Virus record (IMG/VR): IMGVR_UViG_3300017743_000177
Location: 1-20,993 of that record
Strand: one strand, 5' to 3'
Source: a virus
DNA length: 20,993 nucleotides
In this document: piece by piece, positions 2,554 to 12,790 of the stretch
How the letters are laid out: the number at the start of each line of letters is the position of its first letter
Position numbering within the stretch: the first letter of the stretch is position 1
Position numbers and translations under genes: made by a program
The notes under the pieces: generated by a model
Seen by the model: only the letters and a program-made list of their open reading frames with translations
What the model was told of the DNA's origin: nothing
Databases searched by the model: none

Positions 2554-3095
2554 TGGTAACTTCCTACTATGCCTGAGACAACCTCTTGGGCTTGCTCTGG
2601 TGTGCATTTAAACCACTCACTACGTCTTTCGTACAACTTTTGTAGTTCGCTATGGGCTTCTGACTCTGCAGCACGTCTATCGTTAACGTCCCAACTATAG
2701 TTTAACATATAATCTCTAAAAGGGGAAGACGTTTGGTACCCATTCAGTCTATCTTCTGCCTCCACAGCCATTCCAACCTTAACCCAACTACAAAAGTTAG
2801 GGTTTGTAATAACATAAACCTGACCTTCTGTACTGCTTTCGTACTTCTCAAGACTGCTAAAGGCAGCGTCCTCAAAGGTCTTGTACTTCCCCGGTTTATG
2901 TAAAGGATGAGACTTCGGAACAAACTTACCATTTACAAACATTCTTGTTTTATTCCTATTTTGGTGAGTCCTGTTGTACTCACTTTTGCAGGATTTACAG
3001 TAATCTTGTCTTCCGTCTTTACGTGAAGAGCTTTTGCTAAATTTAGTTACCTCTTTTTCTTCACCACATTTTGAACACTGTTTAGTTAAGATCAT
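2550..3095 (-). CDS. GIY-YIG/T5orf172-like nuclease with N-terminal zinc ribbon, probable homing-type endonuclease
   Basis: A 181-residue two-domain protein. Residues 7-36 hold C7-x2-C10 and C33-x2-C36, the zinc ribbon often found at the front of phage HNH or GIY-YIG endonucleases. A linker follows, then a degenerate GIY-YIG core: VYVI (93-96), VKVG (105-108), R116 in DRLNGYQTSSP, and an E..AH segment (E144/E146, H148), as in T5orf172/MUG113 proteins. The ATG at 3095 shares one base with the polymerase stop (TGATG) and has GGAG 8 nt upstream. Base composition stands out: three sampled 60-nt lines (2881-3060) total about 36% GC, while sampled polymerase and helicase lines are 52-57%. This suggests recent insertion between two replication genes. 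Activity and target are unknown. Confidence 0.75.
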   Translation of the reverse strand: MILTKQCSKCGEEKEVTKFSKSSSRKDGRQDYCKSCKSEYNRTHQNRNKTRMFVNGKFVPKSHPLHKPGKYKTFEDAAFSSLEKYESSTEGQVYVITNPNFCSWVKVGMAVEAEDRLNGYQTSSPFRDYMLNYSWDVNDRRAAESEAHSELQKLYERRSEWFKCTPEQAQEVVSGIVGSYQ

Positions 3096-4729
3096 CAGTG
3101 CGTCTCCGCCCATGTTGTGCCGACTTTGTATTCTCCGTCAAGGGGGCATCTAAGGTTATACTCCACGCCTGCCGCCTTGAGGCACTCCACTGCGAGCCAG
3201 CCATACTTCTCTGCTTGGTCTGCAGCCACCTCCGATTGTACTTCGTCATGAATGTTACCTATGAATTTGTAGTTAAGCTTCCACTGCTGTGCGTAGTCGT
3301 CCAAGATCACCAGTGCTTTTTTCATTACGATTGCACCTGCTGCTTGGAGCAGAGTATTCAATGCAGCATGTTCAGATCTAACTCGTAATCTTCGACCATC
3401 AAGTCCCCTGAGATAGCCTCGCTGAGATGCTCTAGTAACCCGTTCTCGTAGACTTTCAAGAGCAGGTGTATTTCGTAGAAATCGTTGCTTAAGATCTGCG
3501 CCGTCTCTTGCGCTTCCTCCAACGATACTTCCAATTTTTGCATCTCCTGCCCCGTAGAGGAAAGCGTAGATGAAAGTCTTTGCTTGAGGTCTTGTTTCAA
3601 GGCCAGCAGCCATTTGGTTTCTTGTATGAATGTCTTCTGTGAGAAGGACATTGGTAAACTCCTTGTCGTCCATGTAGTGCGCCAACATTCGTAGCTCAAG
3701 GCCACTAGCGTCGAAACCTACTAGCTTCTTCCCTTCAGGTACAGTCCAGCAGGAGCGACACTCGTGTCCGTAAGGACTGTGGCTTGCTGGGACTTGGGCC
3801 ATATTGGGACTCTGGTGGGTCATGCGTCCAGTGACTGCTCCGTTACTGATGACACGACCATGTACTCTGCCGTCCTCCTGAACAGCTTCTAACCATGAAT
3901 GTACTTGCGCATATCGCTTTTGAAGAGTAAGGTACTCCAAAACTTTTCCTGCCTCAGGGACGTGGTTGTTCTCCTTAAGCGTCTTTTCATCGACAACAGG
4001 CTTTCCGCTTGGCGTCTTCTCGTTCCACTTCGCACCCTTAGTTGCAAGTCGTTCTGCAACTTGTTGTCTGGACCCAACATTGAAAACTGTAACTTTGTCC
4101 TTAAGTCGTTTCCCTGTCTTCTCAGAAATCCTTTCTTCGACAATGGGCGGGAACATCTCTTGTAGTTCGGCTTCAATTGCATTCATGCCTTCCTTGAATG
4201 TTGCACATAACTCATTAGCCAATTGCTGATCTAAGACCCAACCATTGCGCTCTTGTTGTTGGACTGCAAACTGAACCTTATGTTCCAATCCGATACACTT
4301 AGGGTCAAAATCTTGCATGTCCTTGACAAGCTGCTGATGTACTGCTTCTGTAACTGCTACGTCCTGTATGCAGTAGTCAATCATAGCAGGAGACAAACAC
4401 GACCAGTCGTCATGGTCACCCTTTGGGAAGCCCAAGGTTTCACCCCAAGCTCTCAACGAGTGTCCACCTTGTCTGCTTGGGTCAAACAAACGTGACAACA
4501 CCAGTGTGTCCACTATGCGCTCAGGAGCCACAGAAAGCCCCCAGAGACGCTTCAGCACTGGGAGGTCATAACCTATCAGGTTGTGCCCACAAACGCTCAC
4601 AGAGCCAGCCAGAGCCTCACAGAGGGTACTACAGTTGGTATGTACCTGTGAAACACCTTTCTCCCGTGTTACAACGCACCAAATGGTGTCAGGAGTTAAA
4701 CCGTTGGCCTCAAGATCAAGGTAGATCAA
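3095..4729 (-). CDS. T7-like family A DNA polymerase with 3'-5' exonuclease
   Basis: The replicative polymerase, 544 residues. Exonuclease motifs: LDLEANGL (D5, E7), GHNLIGYD (D55), and Y119/D123. Polymerase motifs: TGR (300-302), motif A VGFDASGLEL (D340), motif B R380-K384-Y388-Y392 in RPQAKTFIYAFLYGAG, and motif C HDE (494-496). Y388 corresponds to T7 Tyr526 (E. coli Pol I 762), the tyrosine type seen in lytic T7-like phages. T7 gp5 has 704 residues. Most of the difference falls just before VFNVGS (about 216), where T7 carries its thioredoxin-binding insertion, so that domain seems absent. The start is TTG, overlapping the primase-helicase stop as TTGA, with AGGAG 7 nt upstream. Confidence 0.96.
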   Translation of the reverse strand: MIYLDLEANGLTPDTIWCVVTREKGVSQVHTNCSTLCEALAGSVSVCGHNLIGYDLPVLKRLWGLSVAPERIVDTLVLSRLFDPSRQGGHSLRAWGETLGFPKGDHDDWSCLSPAMIDYCIQDVAVTEAVHQQLVKDMQDFDPKCIGLEHKVQFAVQQQERNGWVLDQQLANELCATFKEGMNAIEAELQEMFPPIVEERISEKTGKRLKDKVTVFNVGSRQQVAERLATKGAKWNEKTPSGKPVVDEKTLKENNHVPEAGKVLEYLTLQKRYAQVHSWLEAVQEDGRVHGRVISNGAVTGRMTHQSPNMAQVPASHSPYGHECRSCWTVPEGKKLVGFDASGLELRMLAHYMDDKEFTNVLLTEDIHTRNQMAAGLETRPQAKTFIYAFLYGAGDAKIGSIVGGSARDGADLKQRFLRNTPALESLRERVTRASQRGYLRGLDGRRLRVRSEHAALNTLLQAAGAIVMKKALVILDDYAQQWKLNYKFIGNIHDEVQSEVAADQAEKYGWLAVECLKAAGVEYNLRCPLDGEYKVGTTWAETH

Positions 4730-6345
4730 AAGTCTGCTCCTACTTCAGGGTTAGCTACTTCTGTCATTCTTCCGGTACTTCTGTCGTACTGTAAGTAACA
4801 CGCAGGTCCAGTTTCACCGGTGTAACGATTCTTCAGGACTCGAACAGTAGTCGTGTTCCTGATGTCTTCGTTAGCGTTCTGCTGGTCACGCTCCATACCA
4901 ATCACAATGTCGGACAGTTGTGCAATCGCTTGTGACCCACGTAGTTCACCCAAAGATATCTGAGCACCGTCCTCGTGTGCCTTACCTTGGGATCGACGAA
5001 GGTGTGACACGAGGAACAGACCAATGCCTGTCTCCGCCACAAGCGTACGTAACTTGGTCATGATCTCGTCAATGGCCTTACGCTCGTCTCCGGACTCTTG
5101 GGAAGACACGACGATGGACAAGTGGTCCAGTACGACGTACCTGCAGTCAAGCGCTTTTGCCATGTAGCGAACACGGGCGAGCAAGTTGTCTGCTGAAGTA
5201 GACCCCCAATGGTCGAATAAGTAGTAACGTCCTGTGCCCAATGTGGCCTCCCAAAAAGGTCGAAGTTGGTCCACAGGCGTGTCCTCTTCCAAGTGTAGGG
5301 GCCTGTTTGCCGCCACCGACATGATACCAAGGCTTGTTCGGGCCAGATCTTCCTCAAGCGCCAAGACTCCAATATTGCCTTCGCATCGGCGTAGTAGATC
5401 GTACTCAATTTCTCTGATAAATTGGGACTTTCCCATACCACTGCCGCTTGTGATCGTGACCAACTCATAAGGTCTATGTCCCCTTGTGATGTGGTTTAGA
5501 CCTTCCCAAGGGTACGGGATGGACTTCACCTGTCTTTTCTCTACCAGAGTGTCCCATGTTTCAGTGCCTGCTACAATGCCGTCAGGTCGGTAAACTTTCG
5601 CATTCCACCATGCTTGCGTAAAGTCCTTAACCCTATTAGCCATGAGCATGTCACTGGCGTCCTTCACAGGAAGTTTACAGATTCTTAGCTTGTTAGGACT
5701 AAAGAGGTCCTTAACTTGCTCCAAAGCCGCATCTCCTGCTTTGTCATTGTCGAAACAAATAACTATGTTTTCGTATGACTCAAGCCACTCTAGCTGTTCT
5801 TTAATTTCCTTGGCGGCATTACTAGCACCTGACCGTAGGGAAACCACGTCGTACTGTTTGTTAAACATCTCGTACACACTAAGTGCGTCGAGTTCTCCTT
5901 CGGTGATTGTGATGTACTTATTACCGCTACACTGCTGCTGTCCAAAGAAACCAGCACCGGACATGTCTCCGGTTGCGTGGAATCCTTTGGTTTTTACGTC
6001 ACGCACCTTAGCTGCACACACTTCCCCTGACTCGCCGTTGTAGTAAGGATAGTAGTGCTTTTGAATCTCCCCTGTGCTGGAGTACTCAACGGTAACACCA
6101 AAGCGGCTACAGGTTTCCTGCGATAGTCTACGCTGGGGTATTGCCGCTACTACACCACCCATGTTCAGGGGTTTAGCTTTTGGTAGTTCTTGAGTCGTCA
6201 TTGGTGTTTCACCGTCTCCAAATACATGGTAGTCACAACCGGAAGCAAAACAGTGCTGGCCTCCGTTGTCGTAGATAGCGAGAGCGTCCGAAGAACCACA
6301 CTCCGGACAACTCTCGTGACGTACAAACTTAGAAGTCTGCGGCAT
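4726..6345 (-). CDS. T7 gp4-like DNA primase-helicase
   Basis: A bifunctional replication protein that would unwind the fork and make lagging-strand primers. In the 539-residue form: zinc-binding C13, C16, C32 and C37 for template recognition; TOPRIM residues in TEGELD (E149) and FDND (D199, D201); a linker; then the RecA-like helicase with Walker A SGSGMGKS (K306), Walker B VVLDHLSI (D407), the GKAHEDG and LRGSQAI segments, and NRYTGETG near 506, matching T7 RFTGDTG. T7 gp4 has 566 residues. I prefer the ATG at 6345, as the upstream TTG at 6372 only adds nine residues before the zinc domain. The start lies inside the end of the ssDNA-binding gene, in keeping with coupled expression. Confidence 0.95.
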   Translation of the reverse strand: MPQTSKFVRHESCPECGSSDALAIYDNGGQHCFASGCDYHVFGDGETPMTTQELPKAKPLNMGGVVAAIPQRRLSQETCSRFGVTVEYSSTGEIQKHYYPYYNGESGEVCAAKVRDVKTKGFHATGDMSGAGFFGQQQCSGNKYITITEGELDALSVYEMFNKQYDVVSLRSGASNAAKEIKEQLEWLESYENIVICFDNDKAGDAALEQVKDLFSPNKLRICKLPVKDASDMLMANRVKDFTQAWWNAKVYRPDGIVAGTETWDTLVEKRQVKSIPYPWEGLNHITRGHRPYELVTITSGSGMGKSQFIREIEYDLLRRCEGNIGVLALEEDLARTSLGIMSVAANRPLHLEEDTPVDQLRPFWEATLGTGRYYLFDHWGSTSADNLLARVRYMAKALDCRYVVLDHLSIVVSSQESGDERKAIDEIMTKLRTLVAETGIGLFLVSHLRRSQGKAHEDGAQISLGELRGSQAIAQLSDIVIGMERDQQNANEDIRNTTTVRVLKNRYTGETGPACYLQYDRSTGRMTEVANPEVGADF

Positions 6346-6706
6346 CGCCCACAGCCATCTCAGCTTCCTCAAGGACTTTCACTGCTTCGAGATAGGTTGA
6401 CACACCGTGTACTGGATGTGCTGGCCCAAGCTTGTACTTGAGACGTACCTTAGAATTGTAAGGGATCTCACCACCATAAGGGTTACCGTCTTCGTCAAAG
6501 CTTTTTACGTCGTACTTAGATTTAAACTTACGTTGTTTAGCGCCTTGGTAGTCTTTGATCTTGACCCCCATTGCGGACAACGCCGAGGCGTCATCTTCAG
6601 TCATAGTAATGGTCAAAGAGTACTGACCAGTGTCCTGCCCATTGAATACGTCATGTTGGGTTAGGTTACTAAAGTTAACTACGCCTTCGATTGTTGCTGC
6701 TGTCAT
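6329..6706 (-). CDS. Probable single-stranded DNA-binding protein, gp2.5-like
   Basis: A 125-residue protein, first in the replication block. It would coat single-stranded DNA and organise the polymerase and primase-helicase. Sequence support: a beta-rich body (YSLTITMTEDD, SKVRLKYKLG) with an acidic C-terminal tail ending GDAADF. Acidic tails with a terminal phenylalanine are the docking element of T7 gp2.5 and of bacterial SSB. It is much shorter than T7 gp2.5 (232 residues), so the call rests mainly on the tail and on its position directly before the primase-helicase. GGAG lies 8 nt upstream of the ATG. The promoter at 6759-6787 lies about 50 nt upstream, so this gene is probably made at high level. 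Confidence 0.7.
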   Translation of the reverse strand: MTAATIEGVVNFSNLTQHDVFNGQDTGQYSLTITMTEDDASALSAMGVKIKDYQGAKQRKFKSKYDVKSFDEDGNPYGGEIPYNSKVRLKYKLGPAHPVHGVSTYLEAVKVLEEAEMAVGDAADF

Positions 6707-8753: not shown

Positions 8754-8857
8754 TTGTCACGTTCCTTTTTATCAATGTAAATAAACAAGGGCGTGAGTAT
8801 ACCACAAACCCCAAGTAATAACACTACGTCGAACCATGGTTGCCATTGTTCTATCAT
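8750..8857 (-). CDS. Single-span membrane microprotein, 35 aa
   Basis: MIEQWQPWFD is followed by one hydrophobic span (VVLLLGVCGILTPLFIYI) and a basic tail KKERDK, which suggests the C terminus lies in the cytoplasm. This is the best supported of the microproteins. GAGGG lies 7 nt before the ATG, the ATG shares a base with the stop of the GP88 gene (TGATG), and the stop overlaps the next start (ATGA). Function unknown. Its size and topology would fit a small regulator of a membrane protein. Confidence 0.6.
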   Translation of the reverse strand: MIEQWQPWFDVVLLLGVCGILTPLFIYIDKKERDK

Positions 8858-9504
8858 CACGCCACCCTCGCTATTATATCCCGTTGATTCTTTTCCATGC
8901 TCTTACCGTGCCCAATGTAACACACAAGTGCGACATCCTTTGACCAGCATGCCCGACAAGGCCCACATTTGCCCTCTCGTGAATAAGCTTCACAAACTAG
9001 GGCATCCCCTGGCACATTGTCCAACGTCGCTATGGTGGACGTTTGAGGGCCTTCTACGGTGTCCCCTGTAATGCTGTCGGACGATAGGCGCACTACTACG
9101 TTCGGCAATGCTGACATTTCTGCCAACACTGAACCAAACTTTGAAAACTTATGCATCCGTGTCGGTAGCCAATGATTGCACCATGGTGTGCGCTTCATCA
9201 CTTCCAAGATCTTAAACGCAAGGCGTACGTCGTATACGTCACCACTGTCGAACCATCGGAAATAGCGGTCGTTATCCAATTCTGCCACCATGTCATCGAC
9301 CCATTGGTCTCGCTTCCAGTCCTCACGATTGTGTTCTCTAGGGGCTTTGACGTTCTTGAATCGGTAGTTGCCCTGTGTGGCATAGCATCCCGAACAAGCG
9401 TCCACTAGTGACCCGTCACGTTTCTTTGAACCGGGACAAGTGTCGAGCGCTTGTAGTGACCATGAGCGACCCGGCATTTTTGAGGCCTTCGATAGTTTGA
9501 CCAC
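8857..9504 (-). CDS. GP88-family phage protein (cysteine-rich, function unknown)
   Basis: A 215-residue protein that I recognise as the 'gene product 88' family found in many phages; its role is not known to me. Landmarks from the chosen start: C23, C37 and C40 (ACSGCYA), REHN..DWKRD.WVDDMV, the RWFDSGDVYDV block (84-93), TRMHKF (115-120), VVVRLSSDS (137-144), and C171, C180, C183, C186 (CGPCRACW). The alternating conserved strands and the CxxCYA cluster remind me of radical-SAM-like folds such as the Gp37/Gp68 family, but this is inference. The start is GTG at 9504, with AAGGAG 6 nt upstream. A longer TTG reading would translate through a hairpin. It is the second gene left of the putative origin. 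Confidence 0.82.
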   Translation of the reverse strand: MVKLSKASKMPGRSWSLQALDTCPGSKKRDGSLVDACSGCYATQGNYRFKNVKAPREHNREDWKRDQWVDDMVAELDNDRYFRWFDSGDVYDVRLAFKILEVMKRTPWCNHWLPTRMHKFSKFGSVLAEMSALPNVVVRLSSDSITGDTVEGPQTSTIATLDNVPGDALVCEAYSREGKCGPCRACWSKDVALVCYIGHGKSMEKNQRDIIARVA

Positions 9505-9536
9505 GATGAACTCCTTTTGTTTCTGGTACGCCGAAA

Positions 9537-9554
9537 GCCCCGCATAAGCGAGGC
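9537..9554 (-). terminator. Hairpin in the GP88 leader, weak terminator or attenuator
   Basis: On the minus strand GCCTCGC-TTAT-GCGGGGC forms a 7-bp stem (one T-G pair) with a 4-nt loop, followed by only three T residues. The short T-run makes efficient termination doubtful. It lies 33 nt upstream of the GP88 start and could reduce read-through or protect the mRNA. Confidence 0.4.
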
Positions 9555-9563
9555 CCAAGGGTT

Positions 9564-9581
9564 GACCGTCGTTTAACGGTC
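9564..9581 (-). repeat. Second hairpin at the end of the 61-aa gene
   Basis: GACCGT and ACGGTC form a 6-bp perfect stem with a 6-nt loop containing the stop codon of the 61-residue gene. Together with the hairpin 10 nt further on, it gives two stem-loops in a 68-nt gap. Confidence 0.4.
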
Positions 9582-9758
9582 GTCGATGGATACGTTCACT
9601 GGTCGTCCCTTCTTGTGCTCAATGTAGAGCGACCAAAGCCCACCGGTCAAATTGTGGTAGCACTCGCCTTGGTTATAGCTGAAGGGCTTGCTTAAAATCT
9701 TACGCTTGCGAAGGATTACTGACCGACCTAGGATTTTTGATGTGGTTACGTTTTCCAT
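9573..9758 (-). CDS. Hypothetical protein, 61 aa; first gene of the left arm
   Basis: The protein starts MENVTTSKILGRSVILRKRK and has a basic first half, then YNQGECYHNLTGGLWSLYIE and a short polar end. It appears beta-rich and soluble; I recognise no family. The start is strong: AGGAGG 8 nt before the ATG. As the gene nearest to the putative origin on the left, it is probably the first one transcribed leftward. A small basic first protein could bind nucleic acid, but no motif shows it. Confidence 0.66.
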   Translation of the reverse strand: MENVTTSKILGRSVILRKRKILSKPFSYNQGECYHNLTGGLWSLYIEHKKGRPVNVSIDDR

Positions 9759-9785
9759 GATGTTGCCCTCCTTGGGCTTTTGTAG

Positions 9786-9811
9786 GCCTTGGCTTGATTG
9801 CCTTGGCTTGA
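9786..9811. repeat. Direct repeat GCCTTGGCTTGA x2
   Basis: The 12-mer occurs at 9786-9797 and 9800-9811, a 14-nt period. It lies in the leader of the leftward transcript, shortly before the 61-residue gene. No function is evident. Confidence 0.6.
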
Positions 9812-9815
9812 GTTC

Positions 9816-9843
9816 ATAATGCCACAGCGAGACTTGAGTGCAA
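9816..9843 (-). promoter_or_regulatory. Weak leftward promoter candidate for the early block
   Basis: On the minus strand TTGCAC (9838-9843), a 16-nt spacer and CATTAT (9816-9821) give a poor sigma70 match, three of six and four of six bases. It is the best candidate I found for driving the leftward early genes, well below the three strong promoters in this window. The true promoter may need an activator or may lie in the AT-rich patch just upstream. Confidence 0.25.
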
Positions 9844-9929
9844 CATTTATTTTGTGTGAATATTTACATTAATTATTTGTTGACTGCTTTTGGTGTCCTG
9901 TGTTACTCGCACGTGCACACGTTATGAAA

Positions 9930-10064
9930 GGCCCTGAGGGTTCAACATAAGTCCTCACACTTGTCAACCCCAAATATGCAAAAACTCGAATAAACTTTTG
10001 TTGATGCCCTAGCATACCCCAAGGTTAAAACCCCGTGAGCGGCTTCTGAGGGCGCCTCAGGGCC
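9930..10064. repeat. Inverted repeat GGCCCTGAGG / CCTCAGGGCC, with a local hairpin
   Basis: The 10-bp perfect arms lie at 9930-9939 and 10055-10064, 115 bp apart. The right arm takes part in a second structure, CTGAGG-GCG-CCTCAG at 10046-10060, and sits directly beside the first DnaA box. It could mark the left edge of the origin core. Confidence 0.45.
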
Positions 10065-10065
10065 A

Positions 10066-10237
10066 TGTGGATAAACCTGTGGATAACTTAGGTTGACCCT
10101 GTGGAAAACCTGTGGATAACCTGTGCATAACTTTATCCACAGCCCAAGAGTTATCCACAGGATGTCCACAGGATAAACACAAGTTGTCCACAACCTGTGG
10201 ATAAACTGTTGATAACCTGTGGAAAACCTGTGGATAA
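10066..10237. repeat. Array of 12 DnaA-box-like 9-mers
   Basis: Exact TTATNCACA boxes: on the minus strand at 10066, 10078, 10111, 10122 (N=G), 10196 and 10229 (leftmost bases given), and on the plus strand at 10133 and 10151. Near matches: TTTTCCACA at 10100 and 10218 (these fit TTWTNCACA) and TTATCAACA at 10207 on the minus strand, and TTGTCCACA at 10184 on the plus strand. The unit is often an 11-mer, CCTGTGGATAA or CCTGTGGAAAA. Starts at 10100, 10111, 10122 and 10133, and again at 10196, 10207, 10218 and 10229, are exactly 11 bp apart, about one helical turn. Roughly 0.6 exact boxes would be expected by chance on both strands of a uniform 21-kb sequence; eight occur in 172 bp. DnaA binding itself is not shown. 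Confidence 0.9.
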
Positions 10238-10263: not shown

Positions 10264-10400
10264 ACCGGGGGAGGGGTATTTGTAGTTGTTATTGTTGTTG
10301 TAGCCACTTAGGCACAAAATAAGGTAAAATTAGAAAAATTAAGTAAAAATAAAAGCAGTATAACCTCTTGTTTTTACTCAAGTTTCAATAGTCCCAGGAA
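10264..10400. other. Candidate DNA unwinding element
   Basis: Directly after the box array comes a G-rich block (CCGGGGGAGGGG, about 10264-10275), then a tract of mostly TTG/TAG/TTA triplets (about 10277-10302), then an AT-rich stretch (10315 to about 10400) with several A-runs. A DnaA-box, GC-rich, triplet, AT-rich order resembles the unwinding region of some bacterial origins. The triplets match the DnaA-trio consensus only in part, since most have T rather than A in the middle. Confidence 0.42.
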
Positions 10401-10416
10401 TTAACCTAAAAATGGC

Positions 10417-10445
10417 TTGACTTTCGTGTTAACTTATGTTATACT
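10417..10445 (+). promoter_or_regulatory. Strong sigma70-type promoter for the right arm
   Basis: TTGACT (10417-10422), a 17-nt spacer and TATACT (10440-10445) differ from consensus at one base each. Transcription would start near 10452 and enter the small terminase gene. The palindrome ACTATAGT (10442-10449) overlaps the -10 and the stretch just after it. Confidence 0.82.
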
Positions 10446-10473: not shown

Positions 10474-10857
10474 ATGACCACAGAAGTTAAAAAAAGAGGT
10501 CGTGGCAGACCCCGGAAGTCCGAAGTAGCCGCTGTAAAGCCCGGTAACAAGGGTGTAGTAGGCCGACCAAAGGGTGACGCAGCGATAATTAATGAGTACA
10601 AGGCTAGGATGTTGGCTAGTCCTAAGTCTCGTAAGGTCCTAGAGACTATTTTTGATGCTGCTTTGGACCATGACCATAAGAATCAGGCTGCTGCTTGGAA
10701 ACTTGTGATGGACCGTATACTACCAGTGGGTGCCTTTGAGAAGGACGTAGTAAAAGACAATGGTAGAAACGCTATACAGATCAACATTAGTGGTGTAGGT
10801 ACTGCAGAGGTATCAACACCAGAGATAATCGAAGGAGAAGTAGTAGATGAGTCTTAA
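10474..10857 (+). CDS. Putative terminase small subunit with AT-hook-like segments
   Basis: A 127-residue protein. The N terminus has two AT-hook-like basic patches, KKRGRGRPRKS (6-16) and GVVGRPKGD (27-35), which would bind the DNA minor groove. The middle part is helical (LASPKSRKVLETIFDAALD, then KNQAAAWKLVMDRILP), similar to proteins annotated as small terminase in marine podoviruses. The C terminus is acidic. In the family, the small subunit selects the packaging site and stimulates TerL. It is the first gene of the right arm, but separated from TerL by two genes, which is less usual. AAGG lies about 13 nt before the ATG, so the ribosome binding site is weak. A general DNA-binding regulator is the alternative. 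Confidence 0.6.
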   Translation: MTTEVKKRGRGRPRKSEVAAVKPGNKGVVGRPKGDAAIINEYKARMLASPKSRKVLETIFDAALDHDHKNQAAAWKLVMDRILPVGAFEKDVVKDNGRNAIQINISGVGTAEVSTPEIIEGEVVDES

Positions 10858-11197: not shown

Positions 11198-11550
11198 TGT
11201 TATATACAAAGAACAAGAACCTGACAGATACCAGTACGCAAGAGATTGTTACTATTCCTAACGGTTACGTTGCACATTGGAACATGGCGTTTATTGCTAA
11301 CTTACACAACTCAACTAATGACATTACGTTGTTTGTAGACAAGCCTAGTCCTACTCCAGATGTATATATTTATAACGGTACTAACATATCGTCAAAAGAA
11401 AACTTACTGATTGATGGCAGTGCAACCTTTGTTTTACAACCGGGAGACGTTATTAAAGCAGCAGCAGGTAGTTCAGGTAACATCGAAGTAGTCGTTACAT
11501 TTGATCTGTTAGAAGCACCAGCGGTATTTAATAATTTCAATGGATCTTAA
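11197..11550 (+). CDS. Hypothetical beta-rich structural-type protein, 117 aa
   Basis: It starts MLYTKNKNLTDTSTQEIVTI and continues as alternating short strands with many Asn, Thr and Val, including YVAHWNMAFIANLHNSTND and a VLQPGDVIKA segment near residue 88. I recall similar proteins next to terminase genes in marine podoviruses, without assigned function. Beta-rich composition and position suggest a minor virion or decoration protein. I start at the ATG at 11197, which overlaps the endolysin stop (TAATG), rather than the ATG four codons upstream. It overlaps the TerL start by 11 nt. Confidence 0.66.
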   Translation: MLYTKNKNLTDTSTQEIVTIPNGYVAHWNMAFIANLHNSTNDITLFVDKPSPTPDVYIYNGTNISSKENLLIDGSATFVLQPGDVIKAAAGSSGNIEVVVTFDLLEAPAVFNNFNGS

Positions 11551-12790
11551 TATAGAACTACTGCCTTGGCAACAAGATGTCTGGGCAGACGACACAAGAT
11601 TTAAAATAGTAGCTGCTGGGCGACGTACAGGCAAGTCTAGGTTAGCAGCATGGTTATTAATAGTTAACGCACTTCAGGCAGACAGAGGCCATGTATTTTA
11701 CGTCGCACCTACTCAGGGACAAGCCAGAGACATCATGTGGCAAACCTTGCTTGAACTGGGACACCCTGTTATCGCTGGTAGTCACATTAATAATCTGCAA
11801 ATTAAGCTTATCAACGGTGCTACCATCAGCCTTAAAGGTGCCGACAGACCAGAAACAATGCGAGGTGTCAGCCTCAAGTTTCTAGTCATGGACGAATACG
11901 CTGACATGAAGCCAGAGGTCTTTGAGCAGATCTTGAGACCTGCCTTGGCTGACCAAAAGGGATGTGCAATGTTTATAGGCACACCTATGGGAAGGAACCA
12001 CTTTTACGAACTATACAAGTATGCGGAACTGGATGATGACCCTACGTACAAAGCTTGGCATTTTACATCTTACGATAATCCTTTACTTGACCCGTCAGAA
12101 ATTGATATTGCTAAACGCAGTATGTCGAGTTATGCGTTCCGTCAAGAATTTATGGCGTCGTTTGAAGCTCGTGGGTCGGAAATGTTTAAAGAGGACTGGG
12201 TATCTTTTAGCGAAGACGAACCTGAAATAGGAGACTACTACATTGCCGTTGACTTGGCAGGCTTTGAAGAAGTCAACAAAAAGAAAACTAAGAACTCCAA
12301 GCTTGACGACACAGCCATCGCCGTGGCTAAGGTCAATGAGCATGGTTGGTATGTTGACAATATCATATACGGTAGATGGTCACTTGACGAAACAGCAGCT
12401 AAGATATTTCAGGCCGTTAGAGATTACCGTCCCGTGTCGGTTGGAATCGAAAGAGGTATTGCTAAACAGGCTGTAATGTCTCCTCTGTTAGATATGCAAA
12501 AGAGACACGGTATGTTCTTTAGAGTAGAAGAGCTTACCCACGGTAACAAAAAGAAGACCGACAGAGTAATGTGGGCACTACAAGGTCGTTTCGAGAACGG
12601 CTACATTACATTAAACAAAGGTGAATGGAACAGTAGATTTTTGGATCAACTCTTTCAGTTTCCTGATCCTTTGACGCACGATGACTTGATTGACGCTTTG
12701 GCGTACATTGACCAACTGGCAAATGTAGCGTACGACTACGACTACGAAATTGAGGACCACGAAATCTTAGACGTGGTAGCAGGATACTAA
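11540..12790 (+). CDS. Terminase large subunit (packaging ATPase and nuclease)
   Basis: A 416-residue packaging motor. ATPase: Walker A AGRRTGKSR (K32), Walker B FLVMDEYAD (D118, E119) and the coupling motif FIGTP (145-149). Nuclease: AVDLAG with D238, VGIERG with E304, and THDDLIDALAY with D381/D382. All expected catalytic positions are present, so both activities should be intact. In the head assembly pathway it docks on the portal, cuts concatemeric DNA and pumps it into the procapsid. No clear Shine-Dalgarno sequence precedes the ATG; it overlaps the upstream gene by 11 nt, so coupling is likely. The portal gene begins two bases after its stop. Confidence 0.96.
   Translation: MDLNIELLPWQQDVWADDTRFKIVAAGRRTGKSRLAAWLLIVNALQADRGHVFYVAPTQGQARDIMWQTLLELGHPVIAGSHINNLQIKLINGATISLKGADRPETMRGVSLKFLVMDEYADMKPEVFEQILRPALADQKGCAMFIGTPMGRNHFYELYKYAELDDDPTYKAWHFTSYDNPLLDPSEIDIAKRSMSSYAFRQEFMASFEARGSEMFKEDWVSFSEDEPEIGDYYIAVDLAGFEEVNKKKTKNSKLDDTAIAVAKVNEHGWYVDNIIYGRWSLDETAAKIFQAVRDYRPVSVGIERGIAKQAVMSPLLDMQKRHGMFFRVEELTHGNKKKTDRVMWALQGRFENGYITLNKGEWNSRFLDQLFQFPDPLTHDDLIDALAYIDQLANVAYDYDYEIEDHEILDVVAGY

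Follow-up and report, generated by a model that had tools for sequence, protein, structure and literature searches.

The DnaA-box array at positions 10066 to 10237 of the window, the 20,993-base stretch of DNA that was analyzed and that makes up the whole of its IMG/VR record, is one version of a fast-evolving cassette located directly on the left side of a conserved core, ahead of a gene resembling that of the terminase small subunit (terS). In other versions of the cassette, the clusters match sites of the sigma54, Fur, Zur-like, or LexA-like kind or consist of repeats of no recognized type. Capture of a host DNA-binding protein is most likely what the recognized versions would have in common, and we tentatively interpret the array as a decoy for such a protein, a switchable version of the cassette, with confidence slightly short of even. 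A DnaA-dependent origin of replication, which the original prediction had put forward, is not supported as the general function of the locus.

The Window and Its Phage Family

The window is a partial genome from an uncultured phage family whose genomes are approximately 33–38 kb long. One related record of 37,662 bases has a 2,141-base overlap of its ends, giving a 35.5-kb unit with two gene arms that point away from each other at the array and meet about 24.6 kb from it. On the leftward arm are genes for ribonucleotide reductase, a Cas4-type exonuclease, an endonuclease, PolA, a gp4-type primase-helicase, and a gp2.5-like single-strand binding protein (SSB), and the rightward arm encodes an AT-hook protein, an endolysin-type peptidase, the terminase large subunit (TerL), the portal, tail proteins, and the major head protein. 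The main features are as follows.

3095–6706, minus strand: T7-type replisome (PolA, 3095–4729; primase-helicase, 4726–6372; gp2.5-like SSB, 6329–6706)
8857–9558, left arm: GP88 gene (PF17338)
9573–9758, minus strand: 61-aa open reading frame, first of the left arm
10066–10237: DnaA-box array of eight exact TTATNCACA boxes and four one-mismatch boxes, the window phage's version of the variable cassette
10266–10276, plus strand: G-rich box CGGGGGAGGGG, left half of the core common to 164 related loci
10301–10333, plus strand: AT-rich element TAGCCACTTAGGCACAAAATAAGGTAAAATTAG, right half of the core, 32–35 bp from the G-rich box in most loci
10417–10445, plus strand: sigma70-like promoter of the right arm (TTGACT-17-TATACT, 10/12), kept in near relatives as judged by eye
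10474–10857, plus strand: AT-hook protein of 127 aa, a likely terminase small subunit by position only, with no named PHROG family
11540–12790, plus strand: terminase large subunit (phrog_2), which served for finding relatives and for the tree

The description of this phage as T7-like holds for PolA, the gp4-type primase-helicase, and the gp2.5-type SSB, but not for the structural genes (MCP phrog_267, portal phrog_1216, and TerL phrog_2). T7 itself initiates replication by transcription with its own RNA polymerase. The expectation that no such polymerase is encoded was borne out in 45 family records, as PF00940 was absent from the window, 26 related records, and 18 further records (27–38 kb), while two T7-like positive controls were both detected; a T7 primary origin, which relies on the phage RNA polymerase and its promoters, does not fit these 45 records. 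Cultured phages are far off (TerL < 60% identity, PolA 49% at best). A search for proviruses in genome contigs pointed to three metagenome bins of three different phyla and was uninformative as to the host.

The DnaA-Box Array and the Conserved Core

All eight exact and four near boxes that had been predicted within 172 bp were found. The exact TTATNCACA boxes start at 10066, 10078, 10111, 10122, 10133, 10151, 10196, and 10229 and occur nowhere else in the window, and those at 10100, 10184, 10207, and 10218 are one base off. Dinucleotide shuffles of the window contain a mean of 1.0 exact boxes (maximum 4; none of 100 reached 8), close to the approximately 0.6 that had been estimated by chance. 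All 12 boxes are within one base of TTATCCACA, of which seven are identical to it, and many are spaced by 11 or 12 bp. By the direction of TTATCCACA, they fall into three groups.

10066–10130, minus strand (leftward): boxes at 10066, 10078, 10100 (TTTTCCACA, one mismatch), 10111, and 10122 (TTATGCACA)
10133–10192, plus strand (rightward): boxes at 10133, 10151, and 10184 (TTGTCCACA, one mismatch)
10196–10237, minus strand (leftward): boxes at 10196, 10207 (TTATCAACA, one mismatch), 10218 (TTTTCCACA, one mismatch), and 10229

One match to the IHF consensus overlaps the boxes at about 10202 on the minus strand. The array lies, as had been proposed, where the arms diverge, in the gap between the likely flanking genes (the last leftward gene, 9573–9758, and the first rightward gene, starting at 10474).

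The core to the right of the array was found at 164 distinct loci by two pattern scans. Its consensus, which is partly fixed by the search pattern itself, is CGGGGGAGGGG, then 32–35 bp in most loci, then CAGAYACAAAAAAGAG(T)NAAATT. A homolog of the terS-like gene adjoins the core in all 153 loci that are not cut short, which suggests that these loci form one family. Among cultured phages, no match to the core was found. The core of the window (10266–10333; G-rich box, 32–35 bp, CAGACACAAAAAAGAG) is a candidate for an origin, a packaging start, or another role, and its G-rich box may resemble the G-run of mitochondrial CSB II. The sequence of the G box and its position by terS made it tempting as a cosN, a candidate that was rejected as sampled contig starts fall elsewhere. 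Near-complete contigs begin at scattered positions, and the circular map is compatible with fixed direct repeats.

Array Types at the Same Locus in Relatives

The original prediction had proposed a search for the array at the same place in related phages, where its absence from all close relatives would count against it; the array recurs there. Among the 80 TerL relatives kept, about a dozen have 5–11 exact DnaA boxes at a similar distance upstream of TerL, whereas others, with up to 98% TerL identity, have zero exact boxes and different repeats in the gap. The conserved element to the right was present in nearly all gaps inspected.

The segment to the left of the core was compared among 151 loci with at least 150 bases available, many of which are near copies of each other so that the percentages below are not independent, and 1282 windows of the same contigs served as controls. 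The best 12-mer recurs 3.5 times on average in these segments versus 1.7 times in shuffles, and 71.5% of the segments have more repeats than every one of six shuffles. By array type, 17% have clustered DnaA boxes, 22% have sigma54 -24/-12 sites, 5% have Fur sites, and a few percent have Zur-like or LexA-like sites. The remaining 80 of the 151 segments received no type call by consensus matching, on which all of these calls are based.

These motifs are rare or absent in the controls. At least two DnaA sites occur in 16.6% of the segments versus none of the 1282 controls, in which no window has two or more DnaA boxes per 200 bp. Exact sigma54 sites (TGGCAYGN4TTGC, at least one) occur in 24.5% and Fur 19-mers (up to 4 mismatches, at least two) in 4.6%, both versus none of 1282 controls, while one or more Zur-like sites occur in 5.3% versus 0.1% and one or more LexA-like sites in 8.6% versus 0.2%. 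Motifs of CRP, FNR, PurR, MetJ, and alpha-type LexA were found in none of the 151 segments. Moreover, none of 300 column-permuted motifs attained any observed site count, with maxima of 11 versus 107 observed sites for DnaA, 3 versus 106 for sigma54, 11 versus 18 for Fur, 5 versus 12 for Zur, and 9 versus 15 for LexA. The putative Zur-like and LexA-like calls are the weakest.

Several other sequences were noted at these loci. In several relatives of the sigma54 type (L132, L134, and L144), the start of the first left-arm gene is overlapped by a Fur-type box (GATAATGATTCTCATT or similar), approximately 1.6–1.7 kb upstream of TerL. The palindromes GATGACAGCATGYTGTCATC, GTCTTATATAAGAC, and ATAAAGATATCTTTAT occur in arrays without a type call at nine loci (L263, L273, L284; L319, L376, L391; L164, L396, L414) and are candidate sites of further host regulators. 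A search of Rfam gave nothing above threshold, and the sub-threshold matches were caused by repeats. For the sigma54 array, cultured phages gave single short matches only.

Switching and Turnover of the Cassette

On a TerL tree of 100 loci, the DnaA type changes 15 times (shuffled mean 16.8), with at least 7 changes forced by well-supported branches, and all types together change at least 26 times; these counts are approximate because the tree is a quick one and TerL may recombine. Sequence turnover is also rapid, as the array is 51–74% identical between the window and its nearest relatives versus 99% for the terS region and about 91% for the core. The 61-aa open reading frame and the GP88 gene go with the array in G001, G011, and G013.

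The replisome genes do not switch together with the array type. Relatives whose PolA and gp4 are 82–87% identical carry arrays of sigma54 sites at the same spot, with DnaA boxes few or absent, and G010 and G014 have a different replisome (PolA 59%, gp4 45%) yet have DnaA boxes. The whole replisome is replaced in G010, G014, and G017 (L234, L216/L217, and L218/L219, respectively), with PolA at 59%, gp4 at 44–45%, and no similar SSB, and despite this replacement TerL, the portal, and the terS-like gene remain about 80–96% identical. The array as a binding site of the terS-like protein was also considered and rejected, since a switch of array type leaves this protein and TerL highly similar.

Comparison With Known Systems and Other Phages

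DnaA boxes in the signal of phage T5 and titration by datA are already known. The injection stop region of T5 contains DnaA boxes and may interact with host components (PMC13250531). In the T5 genome (AY543070, L425), this region (9140–10149) has a LexA-type box at 9411, DnaA boxes, and several Fur-type boxes. The signal itself (9411–9720) combines a near-perfect LexA-type box, DnaA boxes, and a Fur-type run (AATGAGAATCATT repeats at approximately 9560–9720), and a similar LexA/DnaA/Fur-type combination occurs in the T5 relatives SPLA5b, HdH2, and MM-1. The window resembles this signal of the Tequintavirus left terminal repeat in its non-coding DnaA-box cluster and, by consensus match, in having host-protein sites in non-coding DNA. 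However, the T5 signal is a fixed boundary of two-step DNA entry within a fixed terminal repeat and mixes site types, whereas each array of the window family is dominated by one site type, exchange of types occurs among close relatives, and no fixed end was seen.

The datA locus of E. coli, with two consensus and four one-misfit DnaA boxes, is likewise a cluster able to withhold DnaA, and excess datA sites are cited as delaying initiation (PMC5835720). Unlike datA, which depends on a defined IHF site and stimulates hydrolysis of DnaA-ATP, the window array has more boxes and a single IHF-like match and is phage-borne. Synthetic transcription-factor decoy arrays, in which multicopy binding sites titrate a regulator, are described in PMC7826281; the arrays of the window family differ from them in being natural and phage-borne and in that the target protein would switch between relatives.

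Arrays of DnaA boxes were also found in other phages. The T7-like phage phiEap-1, which encodes its own RNA polymerase, has five exact boxes in one orientation in each of its 195-bp terminal repeats (L208, 1–195; L465, 540–734), and similar clusters occur in P483 (L209), nasanit (L210), FBKp16 (L214), Vibrio phage BD5 (L466), and Klebsiella phage S16a (L467). The arrays of phiEap-1, P483, nasanit, and FBKp16 are like that of the window in having five or more exact boxes in non-coding DNA, mostly in one orientation, but phiEap-1-type arrays lie at genome ends by T7-type early genes in phages with their own RNA polymerase. A location at the genome end that enters first fits phiEap-1 and T5 and was set aside for the window family. 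Intergenic DNA of Microvirus mar31 (L211, approximately 1950–2090) repeats CCTGTGGAAAA about eleven times head to tail, with TTTTCCACA boxes spaced by 11 bp. The RaK2-like jumbo phage Muenster of Klebsiella (L428, MT708547) has a non-coding run of Fur-type boxes (approximately 786–1110) in its 20-kb terminal repeat.

In the open-access literature, the only phage arrays of this kind that were found are the DnaA boxes of the T5 signal and an Ori-Finder prediction for one Pseudomonas phage, and no description was found of the phiEap-1-type terminal-repeat arrays. Nor did this literature, in which subscription journals are little covered, yield an account of a phage locus where arrays for different host regulators replace one another.

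The Array as a Possible Decoy for Host Proteins

Judging from the consensus matches, the matching host protein would bind its sites in the cassette, and each phage genome would offer about a dozen likely high-affinity sites. As phage copies accumulate, the array may act as a decoy, or sponge, that retains the host protein on phage DNA. With the DnaA version, less of the initiator would be left for oriC and DnaA-regulated genes would be perturbed, and the other versions would relieve or disturb the corresponding regulon. Cassettes may be rapidly exchanged or rebuilt, perhaps since hosts differ in which protein is most worth capturing. The original prediction had named a DnaA trap like datA as its alternative to an origin; such a trap does fit better than an origin, but it would be only one case of a broader host-protein cassette.

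Several observations argue for the decoy. Motifs of several host regulators occur at one locus and are enriched relative to both controls and permuted motifs, and repeats exceed those of every shuffle in 71.5% of segments. The type changes at least 26 times on the TerL tree (15 times for DnaA alone) while the replisome does not switch with it, and the arrays turn over faster than their neighbors, as expected if the number of sites outweighs their layout. In addition, the boxes are mostly consensus and dense, with eight exact and four near boxes exceeding the count in datA, and DnaA arrays occur in phages such as phiEap-1 that have their own T7-type RNA polymerase. On the other side, binding is inferred from consensus matches, 80 of the 151 segments have no type call, and phage copy number may not suffice to titrate abundant proteins such as Fur. 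A pure decoy predicts no orientation preference, but a leftward orientation is seen for the core-proximal DnaA boxes of 23 of 25 arrays and, mostly in one clade, for 96 of 102 sigma54 sites. The array also abuts the core, often at a distance of 5–17 bp, which suggests a local role.

Alternative Explanations

Such a local role would be that of an accessory nucleoprotein site, in which the core is an origin, a packaging start, or a DNA-entry signal, and the array draws in whichever strong DNA-binding protein of the host is available so that the DNA there is bent, anchored, or blocked, a role also proposed for the T5 injection stop signal. The two-part core that the array abuts has near-fixed internal spacing and is always closely followed by the terS-like gene, and the GC-skew minimum falls within 1 kb of this core in all 21 near-complete genomes. 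The orientation bias of the nearest DnaA boxes (23 of 25), the combination of a LexA box, DnaA boxes, and several Fur boxes in the T5 injection stop region, and the DnaA or Fur arrays that other phages carry in terminal repeats or at the genome junction also fit this role. However, array layout and distance to the core vary (5–80 bp), no fixed genome end was found at the core (near-complete contig starts are scattered and sampled starts miss the G box), and DnaA, sigma54, and Fur have no shared DNA-remodeling activity. We therefore consider an accessory site somewhat unlikely, if the strongest of the alternatives.

A DnaA-dependent origin would require host DnaA to open the adjacent AT-rich core, with the gp4-type helicase loading itself on the single strand. 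Dense consensus boxes lie by an AT-rich conserved element at the divergence of the arms, at the skew minimum, in a phage that has no T7-type RNA polymerase to prime replication, and the cluster of eight exact and four near boxes beside AT-rich DNA is like origins of the oriC type. Nevertheless, with E. coli oriC as the yardstick, in which the AT-rich unwinding region is on the TGTG side of R1, the polarity is reversed, as the AT-rich core of the window is on the ATAA side of the proximal box and 23 of 25 arrays in relatives show the same opposite polarity. A DnaA-trio search modeled on PMC8287927 gave a best score of 5 for trios within 16 bp of a box, compared to a null mean of 5.21 with all 200 nulls as high, by a simplified implementation that scores E. 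coli weakly too; a DnaA-trio/BUS architecture was thus rejected as giving no signal above chance. Unlike oriC, the array is consensus-rich and interchangeable with non-DnaA arrays. It is not conserved with the replisome, being replaced by sigma54 arrays in near relatives with 82–87% identical PolA and gp4, and arrays of the DnaA type are dispersed across the TerL tree. Similar DnaA arrays are also borne by T7-like phages with their own RNA polymerase. The skew minimum was set aside as proof of an origin because the skew maximum tracks the convergence of the arms (0.53–0.78 of the genome), so that the skew reflects gene direction and is explained by transcription. An origin that depends on DnaA is thus quite unlikely, while DnaA could aid initiation in phages of the DnaA type.

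The array may instead be a regulatory region whose sites tune leftward or divergent transcription by host state, with the sigma54 sites as leftward promoters. Its location between divergent arms is consistent with this, as are the 96 of 102 sigma54 sites directed toward the left arm and the fact that all of the named proteins regulate or direct transcription. However, the sigma54 sites of L412, an independent lineage, run in both directions as judged by eye, the arrays have more sites than a promoter needs, and Fur, Zur, and LexA are mostly repressors, which would be odd beside the early genes of a lytic phage; we regard this explanation as improbable. Rapid turnover and tandem spacing might also be expected of functionless repeats, taken from host DNA or expanded by slippage, but this is very improbable as specific regulator motifs recur independently, permuted motifs never reproduce them, and the array is found exclusively next to the core.

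Significance for the Phage Family

The decoy interpretation can be placed in a wider proposal, to which we give about even weight: that an uncultured, widespread family has an exchangeable site cassette with which each phage would capture a different host protein (DnaA, sigma54 polymerase, Fur, Zur, LexA, or others), the sites acting as decoys or as recruiters to the core, and that the T5 injection stop signal and the terminal-repeat arrays of other phages are the same phenomenon. One caution for genome annotation is that a cluster of DnaA boxes alone is insufficient for calling a phage origin. If the proposal is true, the unexplained DnaA boxes of the T5 injection stop and the arrays in T7-like and other phages would have a common frame, the decoy would multiply with the phage and its target would be switchable by recombination, and host regulators would become readable from phage non-coding DNA. 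Provided that the arrays bind the matching proteins, these phages would control their hosts with bare DNA.
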